In this document: positions 7,174 to 19,834 of the stretch, in pieces
Layout of the letters: every line of letters begins with the position of its first letter
How positions within the stretch are numbered: position 1 is the first letter of the stretch
NCBI GenBank assembly: GCA_006226565.1
Contig: SBGO01000531.1
Location: 1 to 37,495 of the forward strand
Direction of reading: 5' to 3'
DNA: 37,495 nucleotides
From: Deltaproteobacteria bacterium
GTDB taxonomy: Bacteria > Myxococcota_A > UBA9042 > PHBI01
Position numbers and translations under genes: made by a program
The notes under the pieces: generated by a model
What the model saw: the letters and a program-made list of their open reading frames with translations, nothing else
Database searches by the model: none
What the model was told of the DNA's origin: nothing

Positions 7174-7914
7174 ATGCGGCCGATGAGGCCTCCCCGCCAT
7201 GACGCGCCGACGCCGCGTCCATCCCCGGGCGACGCAGGCGCCTCCCTCGTCTCCGCCGCGCCCGAGGTCGAGGCCGAGGCCATCGCCGCCCTCACGCCCT
7301 ACCTCGTGCCACGCCGCTTCGCCGCCGGCAGCACCCTCTGGCTCCAGGGCAGCCGCGCCGGGCTCCTCGTCGTCCTCGAGCGCGGGCGCGTGAAGGCCGT
7401 GCGCGACCACCCCGACGGGAGCGCCACGCTGCTCTACATCTTCAGCCCCGGAAACGTGTTCGGCTTCCTGCCCTTCGTCGACGGTGGCCCCTACCCCGCC
7501 ACGGCGATCGCCATCGACGACGTCGAGGCGCGCGTGATGACCCGCGACGCCCTCGTCCGCGCCATCCGCAGCGATCCCGAGGTCGCCCTGACCCTGCTCA
7601 CCGCCCTCGGCCAGCGGCTGCGAGGCGCGTTCCAGCGGGTCGGCGAGCTCGCCCAGCGCCGCGCCGTCGTGCGCGTCGCCGCCGGCGTCGTGAGCCTGCT
7701 CGCCCCCCACGAGGACGGCCCGACCACGACCATCGAGGTCCCCGATCCGGCCTACACCTTCGCCGAGGAGCTCGGCGTCACCCCCGAGACCCTCTCGCGC
7801 GAGCTCAACCGCCTCGCCCACGAGGGCGCCCTCCACCGCCTCGGCCCGCGCCGCTGGCAGGTGCTCGACGCCCCCCGCCTGCGCGCCATCGCGGCCGGCC
7901 ACGAGGACGAGTAG
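7174..7914 (+). CDS. Crp/Fnr-family transcriptional regulator without a cysteine cluster
   Basis: About 246 residues from ATG 7174; ATG 7183 and the track's TTG 7147 are alternatives and none has a strong ribosome-binding site. The N-terminal half is a cyclic-nucleotide-binding-type beta roll (FAAGSTLWLQGS, then IFSPGNVFGFLPFVDGGPYPATAIAIDD). The C-terminal helix-turn-helix has TPETLSRELNRL as recognition helix. This keeps the Glu-x-x-Ser-Arg pattern by which Fnr reads TTGAT half-sites. The N-terminal Fe-S cysteines of true Fnr are absent, so direct oxygen sensing by a 4Fe-4S cluster is unlikely; Dnr/FixK-like or heme sensing is possible. A perfect TTGAT-N4-ATCAA box lies 20 bases after the stop, in front of the FmdE operon, and is the obvious target. 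Confidence 0.9.
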   Translation: MRPMRPPRHDAPTPRPSPGDAGASLVSAAPEVEAEAIAALTPYLVPRRFAAGSTLWLQGSRAGLLVVLERGRVKAVRDHPDGSATLLYIFSPGNVFGFLPFVDGGPYPATAIAIDDVEARVMTRDALVRAIRSDPEVALTLLTALGQRLRGAFQRVGELAQRRAVVRVAAGVVSLLAPHEDGPTTTIEVPDPAYTFAEELGVTPETLSRELNRLAHEGALHRLGPRRWQVLDAPRLRAIAAGHEDE

Positions 7915-7933
7915 GCCGACAATCGGGCCCCCG

Positions 7934-7947
7934 TTGATCGCAATCAA
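7934..7947. promoter_or_regulatory. Perfect Fnr-type operator
   Basis: TTGAT CGCA ATCAA is an exact match to the Fnr/Dnr-class consensus. It lies between the Crp/Fnr regulator gene and the FmdE gene, whose ATG is 61 bases further on. With the candidate -10 at 7969-7974 its centre falls near -40.5, the class II activator position. Confidence 0.8.
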
Positions 7948-7968
7948 GCGCCCCCGCCCCGCGGACCC

Positions 7969-7974
7969 TACCCT
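7969..7974 (+). promoter_or_regulatory. Candidate -10 of the FmdE operon promoter
   Basis: TACCCT (3 of 6 to consensus) lies 21 bases after the Fnr box and no -35 is apparent. This is the layout of a class II activated promoter, where the regulator replaces the -35 contact. Predicted start about 7981, 28 bases before the ATG. Confidence 0.4.
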
Positions 7975-8008
7975 GGCCTCAGCCTGCGTAGACCAGAGGA
8001 GGCGCCCG

Positions 8009-8632
8009 ATGATCGATCCCCGTGACTACCTCGCCGCCGGACAGCAGCTCCACGGCCACAAGTGCCCGGCGATGCCCCTCGGGCTCCGCGCCGGCGCCGC
8101 CGCGATGAACGCCCTCGGCGTCGAGCGCTCCAAGGACGGGCAGCTCCTCGCCCTCGTCGAGCTCGGCGAGCACCACTGCGCCCACTGCTTCGCCGACGGC
8201 GTGCAGATGATCACCGGCTGCACCTTCGGAAAGGGCAACATCCAGGCCCTCGGCTACGGGAAGTTCGGGCTGACCCTGGTCGACAAGGCGACCGGCCGCG
8301 CGGTCCGCGTCGTCCCGAAGGCCGAGGCGCAGCTCCAGAGCAAGCAGACGCCGTTCTTCATCGCGTACCGCCAGAAGGGCATCCCCGCGTCCCAGGTGCC
8401 GCCCGAGGTGGTCGCGCCGCTCATCGAGAAGGTCATGGGCGCCCCCGACGAGGCGATCCTGAGGATCGGCGAGATCGTCGATCACCCCGTCGCCAAGCCC
8501 CTCGAGCACTTCGCCTCCTTCGTCTGCGAGGCGTGCGGCGACATGGTCATCGAGACCTACGGCCGCCTCGTCGGCGACCGCCGGGTCTGCATCCCCTGCG
8601 AGGGTCGGCTCCGCGCCGAAGCGGCCGGCTGA
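8009..8632 (+). CDS. FmdE-family protein with C-terminal zinc ribbon
   Basis: ATG at 8009 follows AGAGGAGG; the track start at 7934 would begin inside the Fnr box. The 207-residue protein has the FmdE domain, with GHKCPAMPLGLRAG (Cys19), EHHCAHC (Cys57, Cys60) and ITGCTFGKGNI (Cys71), all conserved positions of the family named after subunit E of molybdenum formylmethanofuran dehydrogenase. The C-terminus is a treble-clef-like zinc ribbon with CEAC (173/176) and CIPC (194/197). In bacteria without methanogenesis the role of FmdE is unclear, though it is often found near molybdenum or anaerobic genes. It is the first gene of an operon placed behind a perfect Fnr box, which fits an anaerobic function. 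Confidence 0.92.
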   Translation: MIDPRDYLAAGQQLHGHKCPAMPLGLRAGAAAMNALGVERSKDGQLLALVELGEHHCAHCFADGVQMITGCTFGKGNIQALGYGKFGLTLVDKATGRAVRVVPKAEAQLQSKQTPFFIAYRQKGIPASQVPPEVVAPLIEKVMGAPDEAILRIGEIVDHPVAKPLEHFASFVCEACGDMVIETYGRLVGDRRVCIPCEGRLRAEAAG

Positions 8633-8701: not shown

Positions 8702-9451
8702 ATGCTCGTCCCGCTCGTCGCAGGGCTCGTCACCCTGCTCTTCACGACGCTCCTGACGATCGCCGGCGTCGGGGCGGCCTTCATCCTCATCCCGGTCTTC
8801 ATCGCGCTCGGCGTCGACGTCCACGTCGCCATGTCGACGGCGCTGCTCCTCAACGCCATCGCGATGGCCTTCGCCTCCTACCGCTTCGTCAGGGCGAAGC
8901 TCGTGCTCTGGGACATCGCGGTCCCGACGCTGCTCGTCGCGGCCGCGACGTCCCCCCTCGGCGCCATGGTCGGCGTCGGGCTCGACCGCGAGACCCTGCT
9001 CTGGGGCTTCGTGGGGTTCCTGCTCTTCGCCGCCGCGATGATGCTCTTCTACCGCCCGAAGGAGCGCCCCGGGACCCACAGCCGCGGCCAGCGGCTCGGC
9101 TACGGGCTCGCGGTCGGCGCCTTCGCCGGCTTCCTCGGCGGGATGCTCGGCGTCGGCGGCGGCAACTTCGTCGTGCCGGTGCTCGTCTGGCTCGGCATCT
9201 CCGCGAAGCAGGCCTCGGCGACGACCTCGTTCATCGTGATCTTCGCCTCGCTCTCGGGCTTCCTGGGCCGCGTCAGCATGAGCGGCGTCAGCCCGGAGCT
9301 GCTGGCCTTCACCGGCGTCGGCGCGGCGGCCGGGGCCGTCCTCGGCGCCTGGCTGATGACCGAGAAGCTGAACCGGAACCAGGTGAAGCTCCTCATCGGC
9401 GTCGTGCTCCTCGGCGTCGCGGCGAAGATGACCGTGAGCCTGGTGGCGTGA
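8702..9451 (+). CDS. TauE/SafE-family sulfite/anion exporter
   Basis: 249 residues with GAGGAGG 7 bases before the ATG. It has eight or so hydrophobic segments in two halves, each with the family motif: IAGVGAAFILIPVFIALGVDVHVAMSTA in the first half and GFLGGMLGVGGGNFVVPVLVWLGISAKQASATT in the second. The GGMLGVGGG loop is the hallmark of TauE/SafE permeases, which export sulfite, sulfoacetate or related small anions. It lies between the FmdE gene and a predicted beta-barrel protein whose ATG overlaps its stop (TGATG). Substrate not deducible. Confidence 0.92.
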   Translation: MLVPLVAGLVTLLFTTLLTIAGVGAAFILIPVFIALGVDVHVAMSTALLLNAIAMAFASYRFVRAKLVLWDIAVPTLLVAAATSPLGAMVGVGLDRETLLWGFVGFLLFAAAMMLFYRPKERPGTHSRGQRLGYGLAVGAFAGFLGGMLGVGGGNFVVPVLVWLGISAKQASATTSFIVIFASLSGFLGRVSMSGVSPELLAFTGVGAAAGAVLGAWLMTEKLNRNQVKLLIGVVLLGVAAKMTVSLVA

Positions 9452-10104
9452 TGCGCGCGCTCCACGCCCTCGCCGCCGCGGCGCTCCTCTCGGCGCTCGG
9501 GCACGCGCCCGGGGCCCGCGCGGAAGACGCCAGCCCGGAGCTGCGCCTCAAGCTCGACGCCGACTACGCCCTCGGCCCCCTCGCCACGGCGCCCCGGGTC
9601 TTCCTCGAGACCGAGCAGCGCTTCCGCGACGCCGGGCTCGTCTTCCTGAAGGGCTACGCCGGCGCGCGGCTCGCCCCGGCGGCCTGGCTCGGGCTTCAGG
9701 CGTACTACGCCCACGTCGACGGCTTCGGCTCGGCCCACACCACCAAGCACCTGCTGGTCCTCGACGTCGCCCTGAAGGCGGCCCTGGGACCATTCGCGCT
9801 GAGCGACCGCCACGGCAACGAGTGGCACAGCGACCCCGGCTTCTACCGCTACCGGAACGCCCTCCGGGTCGCGTTCACCGGGGGGCCACGCTGGCTCGTG
9901 CCGTGGGTCGGGGAGGAGGTCCGGTTCGACTCGGACGAGGGCCGCCTGGTGATGAACGACGTGGCGGCCGGTCTCGACCTCCGAACGGGGCCGAGCGTGA
10001 CCGTGCGGCTCTACTACGATCTCGAGTCCAGGCGGCGGGGCGCCGACCACTGGATCGACACGCACACCGTCCAGATCATGCTCCTCCTCCACGCGGGGCC
10101 GTGA
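9451..10104 (+). CDS. Predicted outer-membrane beta-barrel protein (DUF2490-like)
   Basis: ATG 9451 overlaps the TauE stop by one base, so translation is coupled; the 680-residue track ORF is a shadow upstream of this point. The 217-residue precursor has a Sec signal peptide ending ARAEDASPEL. The mature part is a series of alternating amphipathic strands (RVFLETEQRFRDAGLVFLKGYAGARLAPAAWLGLQAYYAHVD, YRYRNALRVAF, VRLYYDLESR) ending VQIMLLLHAGP, as expected for a small outer-membrane barrel; the spacing and R-rich strands recall DUF2490 proteins. Probably a pore or accessory to the TauE exporter. Family assignment is tentative. Confidence 0.75.
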   Translation: MRALHALAAAALLSALGHAPGARAEDASPELRLKLDADYALGPLATAPRVFLETEQRFRDAGLVFLKGYAGARLAPAAWLGLQAYYAHVDGFGSAHTTKHLLVLDVALKAALGPFALSDRHGNEWHSDPGFYRYRNALRVAFTGGPRWLVPWVGEEVRFDSDEGRLVMNDVAAGLDLRTGPSVTVRLYYDLESRRRGADHWIDTHTVQIMLLLHAGP

Positions 10105-12354: not shown

Positions 12355-15300
12355 TCAGTTCGCGGTGCAGAGCGGCTCGACGCTGACGTAGCCGGACGAG
12401 CTGGTCACCGAGGCCGTGCCGGTCGCGACGATGGCGTCGTGCCCGTAGGTGACGGTAACGAAGTCCCCGACGCTCCACAGGCCCTCGCCGACCGCGGCGT
12501 TCTGCAGCGTGTCGTCGGCCGGATCCGCGCCCCAGGCGACGTAGCCGACCATCGCGCTGGCGTTCGCGACGGCGCCCTCGTAGATCGCCAGCTCGCCGAT
12601 GCGACCGACGGTGAAGGGCAGGACGTAGGCCGCGGTGCCGCCGCTCGAGATCGAGGCGCCGCCGAGCTGGCCGCAGAGCGTGCCGGCGCAGACCATCCAG
12701 CCGTTCGGGTTGAGCGTGCCGCCGGTCACGTTGCGCAGGGCGACGCTATCCGAGCCCGCCATGAAGCGGACCTGCGAGATCGCGATCGGCGCGCCGGAGG
12801 AGACCGGGATCGAGCCCGGGGTCGCCGGGCAGCCGCCCGCGTTGCACCAGTAGGTGCCCGTCAGGCACTTGCCGCTCTCGCCGGCCGCGTCGATGGACGC
12901 GACGTCCATCGGGTGGATGGCCGCGGTGTAGATCGAGAGCTCGTCGACGTCGCCGTGGAGACCGGCGCCCACGACCACCGGGGCGAGCGGCGCCACGACG
13001 TCGAGGCCGACCGCGCTGCCCGTCCCGTCGAGCGCGCCGTCGACGTAGCCGTAGACGGCGCCGTCGTAGCGGTCGAGGACCATGGCGACGTGGTGCCAGT
13101 CGCCGTCGCGGATCGTCGCCGAGCCGATGAAGACGACGCTCGTGCCGGCGCCGTCCTGCACGGCGTACTCGATCTCGCCGTCGTCCGCGCCGCCGACCAG
13201 GGTCATGCTCCAGCGCTCGCGCGCCGCGGGGCTCGAGTCGTAGTCGTCGCGGGACACGAGGACCTCGCTGCCCTCGCTGCCCTCCGCCGCGCGGACCCAG
13301 AGCTCGACGCCGAAGGAGCCGGCGCCGGGGTTGAGCGCGCTCGACGGGACCGAGACGGTCGCCGCGTCGTCGCCGCCGTGGAAGGACAGCGCGCCGTCCA
13401 CGATGCCGCTGTCGACCGTGGCGCCAGCCACCAGCTCGAGCGTCGCGCCGCCGATCTCGTCGGCTCCGTCGACGTCGCCGGGCCACCACGCCGCCGCCCC
13501 CTGGGGCACCAGGGCGCAGGTCGTCGCGGTCGAGGCGCGCAGGTCGTGACAGGCGCTCGCGCCGCACGGGTTGGGGGCGCACTCGTCGTCGTCGTCGCTG
13601 CAGGTCGTGCCGCCGAAGCCGCCCCCGCAGGTGCAGGTGAAGCCGTCGGGGGTCGCGTCGCCGCTGCAGCTCCCGCCGTTGACGCAGGGGTTGCTGCTGC
13701 ACGCGTTGGAGGCGCAGCTCGAGCCCGTGCCGCTGAAGCCGTCGTTGCACGCGCAGGTGTAGGACCCGGCGGTGTTGGTGCAGACGGCGTTGCGGTCGCA
13801 GGTGTTGCTCGCGGTGGCGCACTCGTCGTTGTCGACGCAGAGGCGCCCGTCGCCGCTGTAGCCCGGCTTGCAGGTGCAGGTGTAGCTGCCGGCCGTGTTG
13901 GCGCAGTTGGCGTCCGAGGAGCAGAGCGCCTGGCCGTTCGTGCACTCGTTCACGTCGGTGCAGGTGTGCCCGTCGCCCGTCCACCCGGCGTTGCAGGTGC
14001 AGGCGAAGCCGCCGATCGTGTCCGCGCAGGACGAGTGCGCCCCGCAGTTGTGCGTGCCGGACGCGCACTCGTCGACGTTGGTGCAGTTCACGCCGGTGCC
14101 GGCGTAGCCGGAGTTGCAGACGCAGGTCGCCGTCCCGGACGCGCCGGAGCAGGTCGCGTCGCTGTCGCAGGTCGGGTTGCAGATGGGCGTCTCGCAGTTG
14201 TCGCCGGTGTGCCCGGTCGCCCCGCAGTCACAGACGTAGCCGCTCGGCAGCTCGGCGCAGGTCCCGCCGAACTGGCACGGGCTGACCGTGCAGCCGCCGG
14301 CGCAGGAGATGGCGCAGCCGGCGAGATCCACGGTGGTGCCGCCGGTGGTCCCGGCGCAGCGGTCGTAGCGGTTCCAGGCGCCGTCGTTGTCGCGGTCGGC
14401 GTGGCCGACGAGGCGCATCATCAGGCCGCCCGGCGTGGTGTTGGCGCCCTGCTTGACGGCGAAGCTGACGATGTTGTTGCCGCTGCGGAAGCCGCTGCTC
14501 AGGGTGAACGCGATGCGCCCGTCGGCGCCGCTCGGCGAGAGGCTCACGTTCTGGGCGCTGCCGTTGACGTAGACCGCCGCCAGCGTGCCGTCCACGAAGC
14601 CGCTGGCGTCGACGCGGAAGGACGCCACGTCCGCCTGCTGGAGGCTGAAGCTCCGCTCGAAGTAGACGTTCGCGGTGGTGCCCCAGCCGCCACAGGCCTT
14701 GCCCGACGGGGCCAGCCAGCCGGCCTCGTGCCAGCTCTGGACCGTCGAGGGGTGGCACGCCGCCGTCACGTCCGCCGCCGCCGACGCCGACTGGAGCGTG
14801 CTCCCGGTCTTCCAGGCGGGATCCGAGGCGCCCGGGGAGAGCACGACGTCCGACGCGTTCACGCCGGTCGAGAGGCTCGGCACGGTCGGGTTGGTCCCGA
14901 CGACCGCCGCCGGGTTGCAGACCGGCTTCTGGGCGCTGCAGCCGCTGTCGGTGTCGGCGCCCGGCGCGTCGTCGAAGCACAGGCCGCACTGGATCATGCA
15001 GCCGCGCTCGCCGACGACCTCGCCGCTGCGGGTGCTCGGGCAGGCGTCGACCGCGTCGATGACGCCGTCACCGTCGGAGTCGGCCGCGCCCCAGCCGTTG
15101 ACGATGAGCGCCGCCGGGTCGTCCGCCTCGGCGGTCTTGCGGACGGCGAAGGTGATGGTGTTGGTGCCGGCGACCCAGCCGCTGTCGACCGTGAAGTCGA
15201 GGGACTTGGTGAGGTCGTAGGCCGGCCCGCGCTCGCCGAGCGGCTGGCCGTTGAGGTAGACCTCGACGACCTGGCTCGAGGTGAAGGCCGAGAACGACGC

Positions 15301-18300
15301 GGAGAAGGTCGCGACCTGCGACGCGCTCAGCGAGATCTCGCGGTGGTAGAAGACGGCGGCGCCGCTCGGGGGCACGGCCGGCGGCGAGCAGCTCGACGCG
15401 ATCACGTCGAAGTCCTGGCCGTCGGTGAAGCCGTCGCAGTCGTTGTCCTTGCCGTCGCAGATCTCGTTGGCGCCGGGGTAGACGGCGGCGTCGTTGGGCT
15501 TGCAGTCGCAGGCGTCGGGGTAGCCGTCGTTGTCGCTGTCCACCTCGGCGAGCGAGAAGTGCAGCGTGAAGTTCTGCAGCGTGCCCGAGGCCGCGCCGTT
15601 GTAGCCGGTGTTGTCGACCACCTGGAGCTTCCAGGTGCCCGTCGGCGCCGACCCGTCGACGCAGCCGGCCAGCGACGTCCCGTCATCGGGCGCGTAGGTC
15701 CCGGTGTAGGGGCTCGAGCCGCTGGCGATCGCCGTCGCCGCCTCGTCGTCGAGGCGCGTGTTGATGAAGTTGGCGTTGCCGCGCTTGTTGATGAGGGTGA
15801 ACCACTTCGCGCCGACCGGGGAGTAGAGCTCGACCGAGAGGTCGCTCGTGCGGCCGTGGGACACGTTGAGGGTCACGTCGAGGTCGAGGGTCTTGCGGCT
15901 GTCGTTGACCGCCGGCGCCGAGCACACCGCGTAGCGCGTCGGGTAGGTGCCGGTGTCGGTGCAGGTGTAGCTGCTGTTGCCGGTGCCGGCGAAGTTGTTG
16001 TCGCCGCCGTCGGGGCAGTAGCGGTCGCTGATGCCCACCGAGCACGCCGCCACCACGTTGACGTCGGCCTCGTCGGTGAAGCCGTCGCCGTCGTTGTCGG
16101 CGCCGTCACAGACCTCGGCCACCGACGGGTCGTTCTCGATGCACCCGATGCCGGGCTGGCCGATCCAGTTGGCGTCGGTCAGCGGCCGCGCGTTCCAGTT
16201 GCGGTAGCAGCTGTCGATGACCAGCGCCGCCGACTTCTGGCCGGTGAGGCTCTGCGAGATCTTCCAGTAGGTGTCGTTGGCGTTCTTCCCGAGGACGTTC
16301 CCGCTCGCGTCGCGGGCGGTGTTCATCACGAAGGGCGCCGGCAGGTTGGCGATCGGGTCGTCGCAGTCGCGCGCGCAGCTCCCCGCGCCGAGCGGGCAGA
16401 TGAAGTTCGCCTCGCGCTGGCAGCTCGCGTTGCAGCCGTCGCCATTCGCGGTGCCGCCGTCGTCACAGGTCTCGCTGCCGAGCACGAGCCCGTCGCCGCA
16501 GATGGGCTGGGTGCAGGTCGCCCCGGTCCAGCCGGTGGAGCACCCGTTGCAGCTCTGGGCCACGCCGGTCGCCTTGTTGCAGGTGACCGCGCCGGGGCAG
16601 TTGTCCGGCGCCACGCAGCCCTTGTCGCAGACGCGCCCCCAGCGGCCGACCACGCAGCCGTCGTCGCACGCCGACGCCTGGCCCGAGGTCTTGTCGCACT
16701 CGATCACGCCGAGGCAGCTCGCGTCCTCGCAGGTGTTGGTGCAGTTCGGGCCCCAGAAGCCGGGCTCGCACGCGGTGCAGCTCGTCGGCTCGCCGGTCGC
16801 CGGGTCGCAGCCGACGGTGCCGATGCAGTGCCCCTGATGGCAGACGCGGTCGCAGCCGAGGCCCCAGAAGCCGTCGTCGCAGCCGTTGCAGCTGGCCGTC
16901 ATGCCGCTGGTCTGGTTGCAGCGCACGGTGCCGGAGCAGTCGCCGGCGTCGCAGGTGTCGAGGCAGGTCTCGCCCCAGTAGCCGGGGTCGCACGCCGGAC
17001 AGCTCGTCGCGACGCCGCTGACCTGATCACACGTCACCGTCCCGTCGCAGTGGCCCTGGGCGCACTCCTGCTCGCAGGTCGGCCCCCAGAAGCCGGGCTC
17101 GCACGCCTGGCAGCTCAGCGGCGTCCCCGCGTCCTTGTAGCAGGTGACGGTGCCGACGCACTCGCCCTGGTCGCAGCTGCGCTTGCAGGTCGTGCCCCAC
17201 CAGCCGGCGTTGCACGCGCTGCAGCTCGTCGCGATCCCCGAGCCCTGCTCGCAGGTCACGGTCCCGATGCACTCGCCCTGGGCGCAGCTGTCCTCGCAGG
17301 TCGGGCCCCAGTAGCCGTCCGCGCACGCGACGCACGCGGTCGCCTCGCCGGTCCCCTGGTCGCACTGCACGTCGCCCACGCAGTTGCCCTGGGGGCACGC
17401 CTGGTCGCAGCTCGGGCCCCACACGCCCGAGTCGCACGACGAGCAGCTGAGCGACGTCCCGGTCAGCTGGTCGCAGTGCACGACGCCCGTGCACGACCCC
17501 TGCTGGCACACGTTGGTGCAGGTCTCGCCCCAGATGCCGGCGTTGCAGCCGGTGCAGCTCACCGGCGCGCCGGTGTCGTGGTCACAGGTCACGACGCCCG
17601 TGCAGTCGCCCTGGTTGCAGACGTTCTGGCAGTAGCTGCCCCAGCGCCCCGGCTCGCACTCGCTGCAGGTCACCGGCGCGCCGTCGATCTGGTCGCAGCT
17701 CGCGTCGCCGACGCAGCCCTCGATCTGGCACGTGTTCTGGCAGGCCGCGCCCCAGGACCCCGGCACGCACTGGGTGCAGCCGAGGGGGTCGCCCGTGGCC
17801 TTGTCGCAGGTCGCCGAGCCGGCGCAGCTCGGGATGGCGCAGGTGTTCTCGCACGCCTGGCCCCAGTTGCCGGACTTGCACTGGTTGCAGGAGGTCGCGG
17901 TGCCCTCGACCTGGTCGCAGGTCACGACGCCCACGCAGGTGCTGCTCGAGCACGTCTTGTCGCAGATTGCGCCCCACTTCCCGGCGGCGCACTCGCTGCA
18001 CGAGACGGCCGCCCCGTCGGTCTGGTTGCAGCGCGCGTCGCCCAGGCAGTTCGGGATGACGCAGGCGTCCTGGCAGGTCGGGCCGGCCCAGCCGACCGCG
18101 CACTCGCTGCACGACAGCGGCACGCCGCTGTTCTGGTTGCAGGTCGCGACGCCGGCGCAGTTCTCCAGCGTGCAGGCGTTCTGGCAGGTGACGCCGTACC
18201 ACCCGGCCGCGCAGCCGCCGCAGGTCAGCGGCTCGCCCGTGCTCTTCGAGCAGGTCAGCGAGCCCACGCAGTTCGACGGCGCGATGCACGCCGCCGAGCA

Positions 18301-19653
18301 CGTGCCGCCCCACCAGCCCTGCTTGCAGGTCGCGCAGCTCACCGTCGTGCCGGTCGCCTGGGCGCAGGTGATCTCGCCCTGGCAGTGGTTGGCGACGCAC
18401 GGGTCGGTGCAGTCGTCCCCCCACAGCCCGGCGCTGCATCCGCCCGGACACAGCCGCCCGGCGCTCGAGTCGTCCTGGTCGCAGATGACCGAGCCGAGGC
18501 AGTCGCCCTGGGGGCACTGCGAGGTACAGTCGACGCCGGTCCAGCCGGGCAGGCAGCGGTCACAGGAGACCGTGGCGCCCGTGTCCTGGTCGCAGCTGAT
18601 GCCCTCGGCGGTCGTCGGGTCGCAGGTGTTGGACGTGCACGGCAGGTCGCAGGACTCGGTGCGCAGGCCCGGCGTGCAGCCGTCGGGGCAGGTCCGGACC
18701 GAGCCGTCCTGGGCGCACACGACGTTGCCGTTGGCGCAGCCGGTGGCGTCACAGGGCTCCATGCAGTCGTCGCCCATCCAGCCGTTCTCGCACTTGGTGC
18801 AGGTCCGCGCGGTGCCGTCGACCTTGTCGCACATGACGCCGCCGACGCAGTTGCCCTGGTCGCAGGTCTGGGCGCAGCCGAGGCCCCACTTGCCGTCGGT
18901 GCACGCGACGCAGGAGACGCCGTTGCCCTGGAGGCCGGGGTGGCAGGTGCAGGTGTAGCCGCCCTCGGTGTTGGTGCAGTCCGCGTTGTCGTTGCAGTCG
19001 TCGACCTCGGTCGCGCACTCGTCGATGTCCTCTTCGCACGCGAGGCCGTAGTAGCCCTCGACGCACGCGTCGCAGAGGCGGTTCGAGCCGTCGCCGGAGC
19101 AGGTCACGGTGCCGGCCTTGCAGTTGCCGACCTCGCACTCCTCGCTGCAGTCCTGGCCGAAATAGCCGGCCGCGCACACGCAGGCGACGCCGCCCTCCTC
19201 GGTGGGCGTGCAGCTGCCGCCGTTGAGGCACGGGTTCGGGTCGCAGAGGTCGACGCGCTCCTCGCAGGTGACGCCCGTCCAGCCCTCGGCGCAGGCGCAC
19301 GCGAAGGCGTTGATCTCGTCGGTGCACGTCCCGCCGTTGGCGCACGGGTTCGGGTCGCAGTCGTCGATCTCGGCGCAGTCGCCGTTGTCGTCGGGACCGT
19401 AGCCCAGCTCGCAGGTGCAGGTGCCGTTGTCGTCACAGGCCCCGCTGGCGCAGTCGGTCGACTGCACGCAGCCGCCGCCGAAGCCACAGGGCGAGCACTT
19501 CGTCCCGCCGCAATCGACGCCGGTCTCGTCGTGGTCCTGGACGAGGTTGTCGCAGACCGCTCCCTCGCTCTTCGTGGAGCCCGAGCAAGCGGACATGGCG
19601 ACGAGCGCTCCGAGCCCTGCGAACATGACGCTGACGGAAACGAGTCGTGACAC
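12355..19653 (-). CDS. Giant EGF-repeat mosaic lipoprotein (2,432 aa)
   Basis: GTG 19653 is chosen over the track start: GAGGGAGA lies upstream and it begins a lipoprotein signal (VSRLVSVSVMFAGLGALVAMSAC). Domains in order: classical EGF units (~60-170); about 22 tandem EGF-like units of ~37 residues (~171-1050) of the pattern C-x4-C-x-G-x3-C-D...SC-x2-C-x2-G-W-G-x2-C, with one calcium-binding EGF inserted after the first; a DUF4215-type CGDGLVLGSETCDDG motif; a P-domain-like segment (~1254-1369); two MopE-type calcium loops; two TSP3-like DxDxDG segments alternating with jelly-roll-like domains; a block of calcium-binding EGFs (~1800-2026); a LamG domain (~2045-2257, DGDWHHVAMVLD); and a C-terminal beta domain. 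Expected to be cell-surface, calcium-stabilised and adhesive. No enzyme motif was seen. Confidence 0.9.
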   Translation of the reverse strand: MSRLVSVSVMFAGLGALVAMSACSGSTKSEGAVCDNLVQDHDETGVDCGGTKCSPCGFGGGCVQSTDCASGACDDNGTCTCELGYGPDDNGDCAEIDDCDPNPCANGGTCTDEINAFACACAEGWTGVTCEERVDLCDPNPCLNGGSCTPTEEGGVACVCAAGYFGQDCSEECEVGNCKAGTVTCSGDGSNRLCDACVEGYYGLACEEDIDECATEVDDCNDNADCTNTEGGYTCTCHPGLQGNGVSCVACTDGKWGLGCAQTCDQGNCVGGVMCDKVDGTARTCTKCENGWMGDDCMEPCDATGCANGNVVCAQDGSVRTCPDGCTPGLRTESCDLPCTSNTCDPTTAEGISCDQDTGATVSCDRCLPGWTGVDCTSQCPQGDCLGSVICDQDDSSAGRLCPGGCSAGLWGDDCTDPCVANHCQGEITCAQATGTTVSCATCKQGWWGGTCSAACIAPSNCVGSLTCSKSTGEPLTCGGCAAGWYGVTCQNACTLENCAGVATCNQNSGVPLSCSECAVGWAGPTCQDACVIPNCLGDARCNQTDGAAVSCSECAAGKWGAICDKTCSSSTCVGVVTCDQVEGTATSCNQCKSGNWGQACENTCAIPSCAGSATCDKATGDPLGCTQCVPGSWGAACQNTCQIEGCVGDASCDQIDGAPVTCSECEPGRWGSYCQNVCNQGDCTGVVTCDHDTGAPVSCTGCNAGIWGETCTNVCQQGSCTGVVHCDQLTGTSLSCSSCDSGVWGPSCDQACPQGNCVGDVQCDQGTGEATACVACADGYWGPTCEDSCAQGECIGTVTCEQGSGIATSCSACNAGWWGTTCKRSCDQGECVGTVTCYKDAGTPLSCQACEPGFWGPTCEQECAQGHCDGTVTCDQVSGVATSCPACDPGYWGETCLDTCDAGDCSGTVRCNQTSGMTASCNGCDDGFWGLGCDRVCHQGHCIGTVGCDPATGEPTSCTACEPGFWGPNCTNTCEDASCLGVIECDKTSGQASACDDGCVVGRWGRVCDKGCVAPDNCPGAVTCNKATGVAQSCNGCSTGWTGATCTQPICGDGLVLGSETCDDGGTANGDGCNASCQREANFICPLGAGSCARDCDDPIANLPAPFVMNTARDASGNVLGKNANDTYWKISQSLTGQKSAALVIDSCYRNWNARPLTDANWIGQPGIGCIENDPSVAEVCDGADNDGDGFTDEADVNVVAACSVGISDRYCPDGGDNNFAGTGNSSYTCTDTGTYPTRYAVCSAPAVNDSRKTLDLDVTLNVSHGRTSDLSVELYSPVGAKWFTLINKRGNANFINTRLDDEAATAIASGSSPYTGTYAPDDGTSLAGCVDGSAPTGTWKLQVVDNTGYNGAASGTLQNFTLHFSLAEVDSDNDGYPDACDCKPNDAAVYPGANEICDGKDNDCDGFTDGQDFDVIASSCSPPAVPPSGAAVFYHREISLSASQVATFSASFSAFTSSQVVEVYLNGQPLGERGPAYDLTKSLDFTVDSGWVAGTNTITFAVRKTAEADDPAALIVNGWGAADSDGDGVIDAVDACPSTRSGEVVGERGCMIQCGLCFDDAPGADTDSGCSAQKPVCNPAAVVGTNPTVPSLSTGVNASDVVLSPGASDPAWKTGSTLQSASAAADVTAACHPSTVQSWHEAGWLAPSGKACGGWGTTANVYFERSFSLQQADVASFRVDASGFVDGTLAAVYVNGSAQNVSLSPSGADGRIAFTLSSGFRSGNNIVSFAVKQGANTTPGGLMMRLVGHADRDNDGAWNRYDRCAGTTGGTTVDLAGCAISCAGGCTVSPCQFGGTCAELPSGYVCDCGATGHTGDNCETPICNPTCDSDATCSGASGTATCVCNSGYAGTGVNCTNVDECASGTHNCGAHSSCADTIGGFACTCNAGWTGDGHTCTDVNECTNGQALCSSDANCANTAGSYTCTCKPGYSGDGRLCVDNDECATASNTCDRNAVCTNTAGSYTCACNDGFSGTGSSCASNACSSNPCVNGGSCSGDATPDGFTCTCGGGFGGTTCSDDDDECAPNPCGASACHDLRASTATTCALVPQGAAAWWPGDVDGADEIGGATLELVAGATVDSGIVDGALSFHGGDDAATVSVPSSALNPGAGSFGVELWVRAAEGSEGSEVLVSRDDYDSSPAARERWSMTLVGGADDGEIEYAVQDGAGTSVVFIGSATIRDGDWHHVAMVLDRYDGAVYGYVDGALDGTGSAVGLDVVAPLAPVVVGAGLHGDVDELSIYTAAIHPMDVASIDAAGESGKCLTGTYWCNAGGCPATPGSIPVSSGAPIAISQVRFMAGSDSVALRNVTGGTLNPNGWMVCAGTLCGQLGGASISSGGTAAYVLPFTVGRIGELAIYEGAVANASAMVGYVAWGADPADDTLQNAAVGEGLWSVGDFVTVTYGHDAIVATGTASVTSSSGYVSVEPLCTAN
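16500..19140 (-). repeat. Tandem array encoding ~22 EGF-like units
   Basis: About 110-base coding repeats, seen on the plus strand as recurrent TCGCAG / GTTGCAG / GCAGCT words. The units are divergent in protein sequence (for example CNQGDCTGVVTC, CAQGECIGTVTC, CHQGHCIGTVGC), but neighbours at 16800-17600 are the most alike, suggesting more recent expansion there. Confidence 0.85.
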
Positions 19654-19834
19654 GGTCTTCTCCCTCGGGTGGCCCCGAGTTGGCTGGTCGTCGGCCTGGC
19701 CGCGGTGGGCGCGAGGCTCGCAGACTACCACACGCAATCGCTCAGAACATGCCGAAACACGCGCCGCTGCGCAACGCACAAGGCGCCCAGCGCGACCCCG
19801 AGCCGCACCGCGATGCCCGAAACCGGCCCCCGGG
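19654..19834. other. Intergenic region before the giant EGF gene
   Basis: This 181-base gap holds a short CTCGGG/CCCGAG hairpin (19664-19679) directly upstream of the ribosome-binding site of the giant gene. No convincing -35/-10 pair was found. DUF190 lies upstream on the same strand, so read-through is possible. Confidence 0.4.

Follow-up and report, generated by a model that had tools for sequence, protein, structure and literature searches.

Which protein reads an exact Fnr-type box when the Crp/Fnr regulator encoded beside it has none of the cysteines of an oxygen-sensing Fnr, and to which signal would that protein respond? The question is raised by a cassette of four genes in a stretch of DNA of 37,495 nucleotides (the window), which encodes a regulator, an FmdE-family protein (PF02663), a TauE/SafE exporter, and a fourth protein without a known family. 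The features of the cassette are:

7174..7914, plus strand: Crp/Fnr-family regulator of 246 aa, recognition head TPETLSR, cysteine-free (PF00027 8.5e-19, PF13545 1.3e-10)
7934..7947, no strand assigned: Fnr-type box TTGATCGCAATCAA, an exact TTGAT-CGCA-ATCAA, which recurs upstream of fmdE orthologues
7969..7974, plus strand: putative -10 hexamer TACCCT, beginning 28.5 bp past the box centre; class II spacing kept in ten orthologous promoters
7996..8002, plus strand: Shine-Dalgarno-like GAGGAGG, a good match by sequence ahead of the ATG at 8009
8009..8632, plus strand: fmdE-family gene, 207 aa (PF02663 1.7e-30), with a C-terminal DksA/TraR-like zinc finger
8702..9451, plus strand: TauE/SafE-family membrane exporter (PF01925 3.3e-37)
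9448..10104, plus strand: protein without a known family, whose N terminus resembles a signal peptide; its gene is the conserved fourth one of the cassette

Our answer, which we regard as probable, is that the regulator would be a local, cysteine-free activator of the Crp/Fnr family, whose dimer would bind TTGAT-N4-ATCAA at 7934-7947 and act as a class II activator at a promoter with its -10 hexamer at 7969 and its start at about 7981/7982. Activated transcription would then express fmdE and the two genes downstream of it, those for the TauE/SafE exporter and for the protein of unknown family. Sequence comparison shows that cassette, box, and class II spacing are all conserved; we infer direct binding, activation and not repression, and a signal that is neither cAMP nor a cysteine-bound Fe-S cluster but some other small ligand or redox state. 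The mechanism is an ordinary one, a cysteine-free class II activator of the Crp/Fnr family, in a new and conserved cassette.

The box, which the first-pass annotation had recognised as an exact consensus, lies 19 bp past the stop codon of the regulator and 61 bp ahead of the fmdE ATG at 8009, and the window contains no second exact copy. The GC content of the window is 73%. A first-order Markov model predicts 0.0003 exact boxes for the window, 0.07 for the genome, and about 1e-6 for the gap between the regulator and fmdE, and matches with at most two mismatches number five in the window versus 0.74 expected from shuffles. The same annotation had proposed to scan the genome (7.71 Mb, 780 contigs) for further sites, and eight exact copies in total were found, versus about 0.07-0.12 expected. 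As controls, the reversed pattern and the same halves with N5 spacing both gave no exact match in the genome, and boxes with one mismatch number 56 versus five in the control. None of the eight exact boxes is located inside an open reading frame judged to be a gene, genes being called here by ORF length and GC3 and not from an annotation. Thus, given the excess, the null controls and the absence from likely genes, Fnr-type boxes are a real and spacing-specific feature of this genome, and a chance match is ruled out for the window by shuffles, genome controls, and Markov expectation alike. The other seven exact boxes (L001-L008) adjoin genes for two proteins with CxxCH motifs (one of them collagen-like, its motifs resembling those of cytochromes), for a DksA-like protein, for a PAP2 enzyme, and for others.

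With the centre of the box at 7940.5 and a predicted start at 7981 or 7982, the box would be centred at -40.5 or -41.5, which is the geometry of a class II Crp/Fnr-dependent promoter (where the box overlaps the -35 region and has its centre near -41.5). Across ten orthologous promoters a TATAAT-like hexamer tends to begin 28-30 bp past the box centre. This offset window was first read from the data; it is the class II distance given in textbooks, and the result holds after correction for the 36 offsets tested. The hexamers score 5.9 on average, the median for all offsets is 2.7, and none of 20,000 permutations reached this mean; with only the seven canonical boxes the result is the same. The conserved distance supports the earlier placement of the box centre at about -40.5 with TACCCT as the -10 hexamer.

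Apart from that of the window, eight genomes have an orthologue of the regulator (about 39-54% identity) linked to fmdE, usually together with TauE and the fourth gene (loci L067, L069, L071, L075, L078, L079, L117, and L120; L078 belongs to genome G031). The cassettes beyond that of G031 came from scanning GTDB contigs and 379 genomes of the phylum. The same arrangement thus recurs in several distantly related bacteria. An Fnr-type box is present upstream of fmdE in six of these eight genomes. It is an exact TTGATN4ATCAA in L067, L071, and L078, and one base off (TTGATTGACGTCAA) in L069; in L079 (at about 4895) and L117 (on the reverse strand, some 90 bp ahead of fmdE) the halves are exact and five bases apart, TTGATN5ATCAA. 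The remaining two boxes have diverged, to TTGTCGCTCGACAA (TTGTC) in L120 and to TTGCCTGCACTCAA in L075. In G031, a genome of the same class, the cassette is the same with the regulator turned around, and the divergent gap between regulator and fmdE contains three boxes (TTGATTCAAGTCAA, TTGATCCAAATCAA, and TTGACCCCTGTCAA). In seven relatives without a linked regulator, the 220 bp ahead of fmdE (132 bp for L076) contain no TTGAYN4RTCAA. Counting the window, the box is therefore present in seven of nine loci with a linked regulator versus none of seven without (Fisher p=0.003); the loci are few and not fully independent, the contig of L076 ends after 132 bp, and for both L076 and L077 a regulator orthologue is encoded on another contig of the genome.

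Some observations count against our explanation. The box of L075 and L077 is imperfect (TTGCCTGCRCTCAA) even though ESLSR is retained in the regulators of both, and for the TTGTC-type box of G085 (L119) a search of that genome found no close relative of the regulator to which it could be tied. The variant boxes of L075 and L077 keep the class II spacing to the -10 hexamer, which suggests that they are genuine.

The regulator has the architecture of the Crp/Fnr superfamily, a cNMP_binding domain followed by a C-terminal HTH_Crp_2 domain, both scoring above the Pfam cut-off and both in agreement with the AlphaFold model and the fold search. It does not belong to the NCBIfam equivalogs FixK, FtrB, or FnrL, for which its best score is 51.9 bits versus cut-offs of 211-300. 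The Glu-x-x-Ser-Arg head of the FNR subfamily is present as TPETLSR (Glu205, Ser208, Arg209), and its Glu, Ser, and Arg are kept in ten of 11 orthologues. On comparative grounds the regulator is predicted to bind TTGATN4ATCAA. In a comparison with E. coli FNR (PMC4505428) all three are present in the window regulator, which speaks for the regulator as reader of the box. The four cysteines that hold the [4Fe-4S] cluster in the FNR subfamily are absent: there is no cysteine in the 246 residues and none is conserved among the 11 orthologues. An alternative start exists at ATG 7183, and the reading frame is open from TTG 7147; the cysteine count is zero if ATG 7174 is the start and one if TTG 7147 is used. 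Both the ETLSR head and the missing cysteines had been described before, and the view that this is not a [4Fe-4S] Fnr holds for the orthologues as well. An oxygen-sensing Fnr as the neighbour of the box is ruled out by the lack of cysteines.

The first-pass annotation had named another Fnr in the genome as an observation that would speak against the linked regulator. Such a protein is present. An Fnr-like protein encoded on contig C43 (L010 1498-2199, minus strand) has four cysteines and the head LETVSR, and its unusual cysteine spacing (Cys-x11-Cys-x2-Cys plus a central Cys) is also found in the orthologue of G001, a relative from the same family (L115 524-1504). This weakens the assignment to the linked regulator and leaves the comparative evidence standing. 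The box might be read mainly by the C43 protein, so that fmdE-tauE would be induced anaerobically as part of a general Fnr regulon, with the neighbouring regulator acting elsewhere or only modulating. The four-cysteine protein itself, with its shared cysteine spacing, and the eight exact intergenic boxes, several of them near c-type-cytochrome-like genes, would fit such a regulon. However, no four-cysteine Fnr was found in G031, G053, G054, and G055, relatives with canonical cassette boxes, and G001 and G002 have no fmdE at E<=0.001. We therefore judge it unlikely that the C43 protein is the main reader, while in the organism of the window both proteins may use the box, resulting in cross-control.

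The linked regulator as reader of the box is further supported by two relatives, G031 and G053, where no Crp/Fnr protein other than the cassette regulator was found to have an E-x-x-S-R head; together with the recurrence of cassette and box in orthologous loci this makes the assignment the favoured one on comparative grounds. In G053 the cassette box is also the only exact box outside an open reading frame. G054, G055, and G057 each have a second regulator with the head RETVSR, and exclusivity therefore holds in two relatives only. Because many exact boxes are present in G055, G057, and G031, some of them inside open reading frames, no regulon can be defined there. In L120 the joint change of the head to APTLSR and of the box to TTGTC would fit a regulator that reads the box. 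In CprK, a change at the position of Glu-209 alters base 3 of the half-site (PMC2610375). L120 keeps base 3 and changes bases 4 and 5, so that this covariation is not the one predicted from CprK.

Crp/Fnr proteins can also repress, and L078 has three boxes in its divergent promoter, so the regulator might use the box as a repressor or as both activator and repressor. This is improbable, because in ten promoters the centre of the box is found at the activating class II distance from the -10-like hexamer.

If the linked regulator is the reader, what does it sense? The first-pass annotation had suggested nitric oxide or a gas bound to heme, which would make the regulator a DNR/NNR-like sensor. 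It shares with these proteins the lack of cysteines and an Fnr-type box, and its ExxSR head is, like that of DNR, of the PET(F/L)SR type. DNR (3dkw) is also among the nearer solved structures, with a profile E-value of 2.4e-25 and an rmsd of 4.9, the lowest among the matches listed in the fold search. However, the nearest matches by sequence profile and fold are the CRPs of Thermus thermophilus and M. tuberculosis, which outscore DNR in the profile comparison, DNR being slightly behind. In addition, the sensor domains of 11 orthologues have no His, Cys, or Met in common, so that neither a candidate heme ligand nor support for heme or nitric oxide is found, and a conserved cysteine-held Fe-S cluster is excluded. 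No gene for denitrification or NO detoxification was seen beside the cassettes, and the regulator appears to control fmdE-tauE instead. The missing residues weigh against a heme or NO response of the DNR/NNR type; we hold a DNR/NNR-like sensor to be very unlikely, and the same low expectation applies to NO or a heme-bound gas as the signal. At another locus (L132 1390-3513) a different Crp/Fnr regulator is followed by TTGACCAAGGTCAA and the gene of a hybrid-cluster (prismane) protein, an arrangement that resembles HcpR/DNR-type regulation.

A cAMP sensor is unlikely as well, given that the contact residues are missing. The phosphate-contact motif of M. tuberculosis CRP, FGELSIFDPGPRTSSA, aligns with FGFLPFVDGGPYPATA in the window regulator, which lacks the Glu and the Arg-Ser/Thr contacts of the CRP subfamily. 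Where CRP has GEL...RTSSA the regulator group has G(F/Y/L)(L/M)P...YPA, with an invariant Tyr-Pro in 11 orthologues in place of the cAMP contacts, and the recognition head differs, too. Trp56 and Tyr107-Pro108 are invariant in the group.

The flanks of the cassettes give a weak hint to the signal. Of the eight linked cassettes whose flanks could be read, four have genes for arsenic or metal efflux as neighbours:

L067: ArsR, ArsP
L069: ACR3
L075: ArsD, ArsA
L079: ArsP

The unlinked L077 is also placed beside arsenic genes (ArsR, ACR3), and a CDF gene is among the efflux genes flanking fmdE cassettes in the set L067, L069, L075, L077, and L079. No such genes were found beside the cassette in the window, L071, L078, and L120. 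Since efflux genes accompany some cassettes and are absent beside others, a metal, metalloid, or oxyanion signal is a hypothesis only. Stress by such a compound, relieved by the cassette itself, is nevertheless our best guess, a tentative one. The wider proposal, that a distinct Crp/Fnr subfamily without cysteines and cAMP motif reads Fnr boxes, senses a metal, metalloid, or oxyanion, and controls an fmdE-tauE export cassette often located next to arsenic efflux genes, is somewhat more doubtful. The RedB paper concerns a different subgroup and was set aside.

Compared to FNR, the [4Fe-4S] oxygen sensor of E. coli and relatives, the window regulator has the same Crp/Fnr fold, the same Glu/Ser/Arg head, the same TTGATN4ATCAA box, and the same predicted class II geometry, but it lacks the cysteine cluster and would be the local regulator of one cassette whereas FNR is global. 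In this last respect it resembles CprK, the activator of halorespiration, which is also specific to a cassette and has an Fnr-like box (TTAATN4ATTAA). CprK differs in binding chlorophenols, in having Val in place of the Fnr Glu, and in its target genes. Not every Fnr box in such genomes should be assigned to an oxygen-sensing Fnr. An uncharacterised Crp/Fnr subfamily tied to one conserved target promoter also means that the signal could be found with a simple reporter.

The cassette would also provide a clue to the function of the FmdE-TauE/SafE pair, which recurs in several phyla and on an enteric plasmid and for which no established role outside methanogenesis was found in the literature. 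The FmdE protein of the window has the FHGHxC-type metal site in the form HGHKC, and H15, H17, C19, and C57 match the metal site of the solved FmdE structures (PMC2954224). Genes of PF02663 mostly adjoin metal-ion transporters (PMC2954224). The zinc-finger match is weak (1.8e-4, below its cut-off). A search of the available literature found no paper on FmdE together with TauE, and the FmdE structure paper alone was informative. For the fourth gene there is no match in Pfam or NCBIfam; orthologues are present in L069, L071, L076, L078, L079, and L117. Here the two-domain FmdE with zinc finger and its TauE/SafE partner differ from known members of the family in having a dedicated Crp/Fnr regulator and a conserved Fnr-type box; upstream of the plasmid fmdE no Fnr box was found in the one enteric plasmid checked. 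The plasmid pair is that of a Kosakonia plasmid (L156 5992-7365), and an fmdE relative is carried by 30 plasmid records including Citrobacter plasmids. Further along the window, at 12355-19779, a very long open reading frame encodes a protein with many EGF-like, cysteine-rich repeats.
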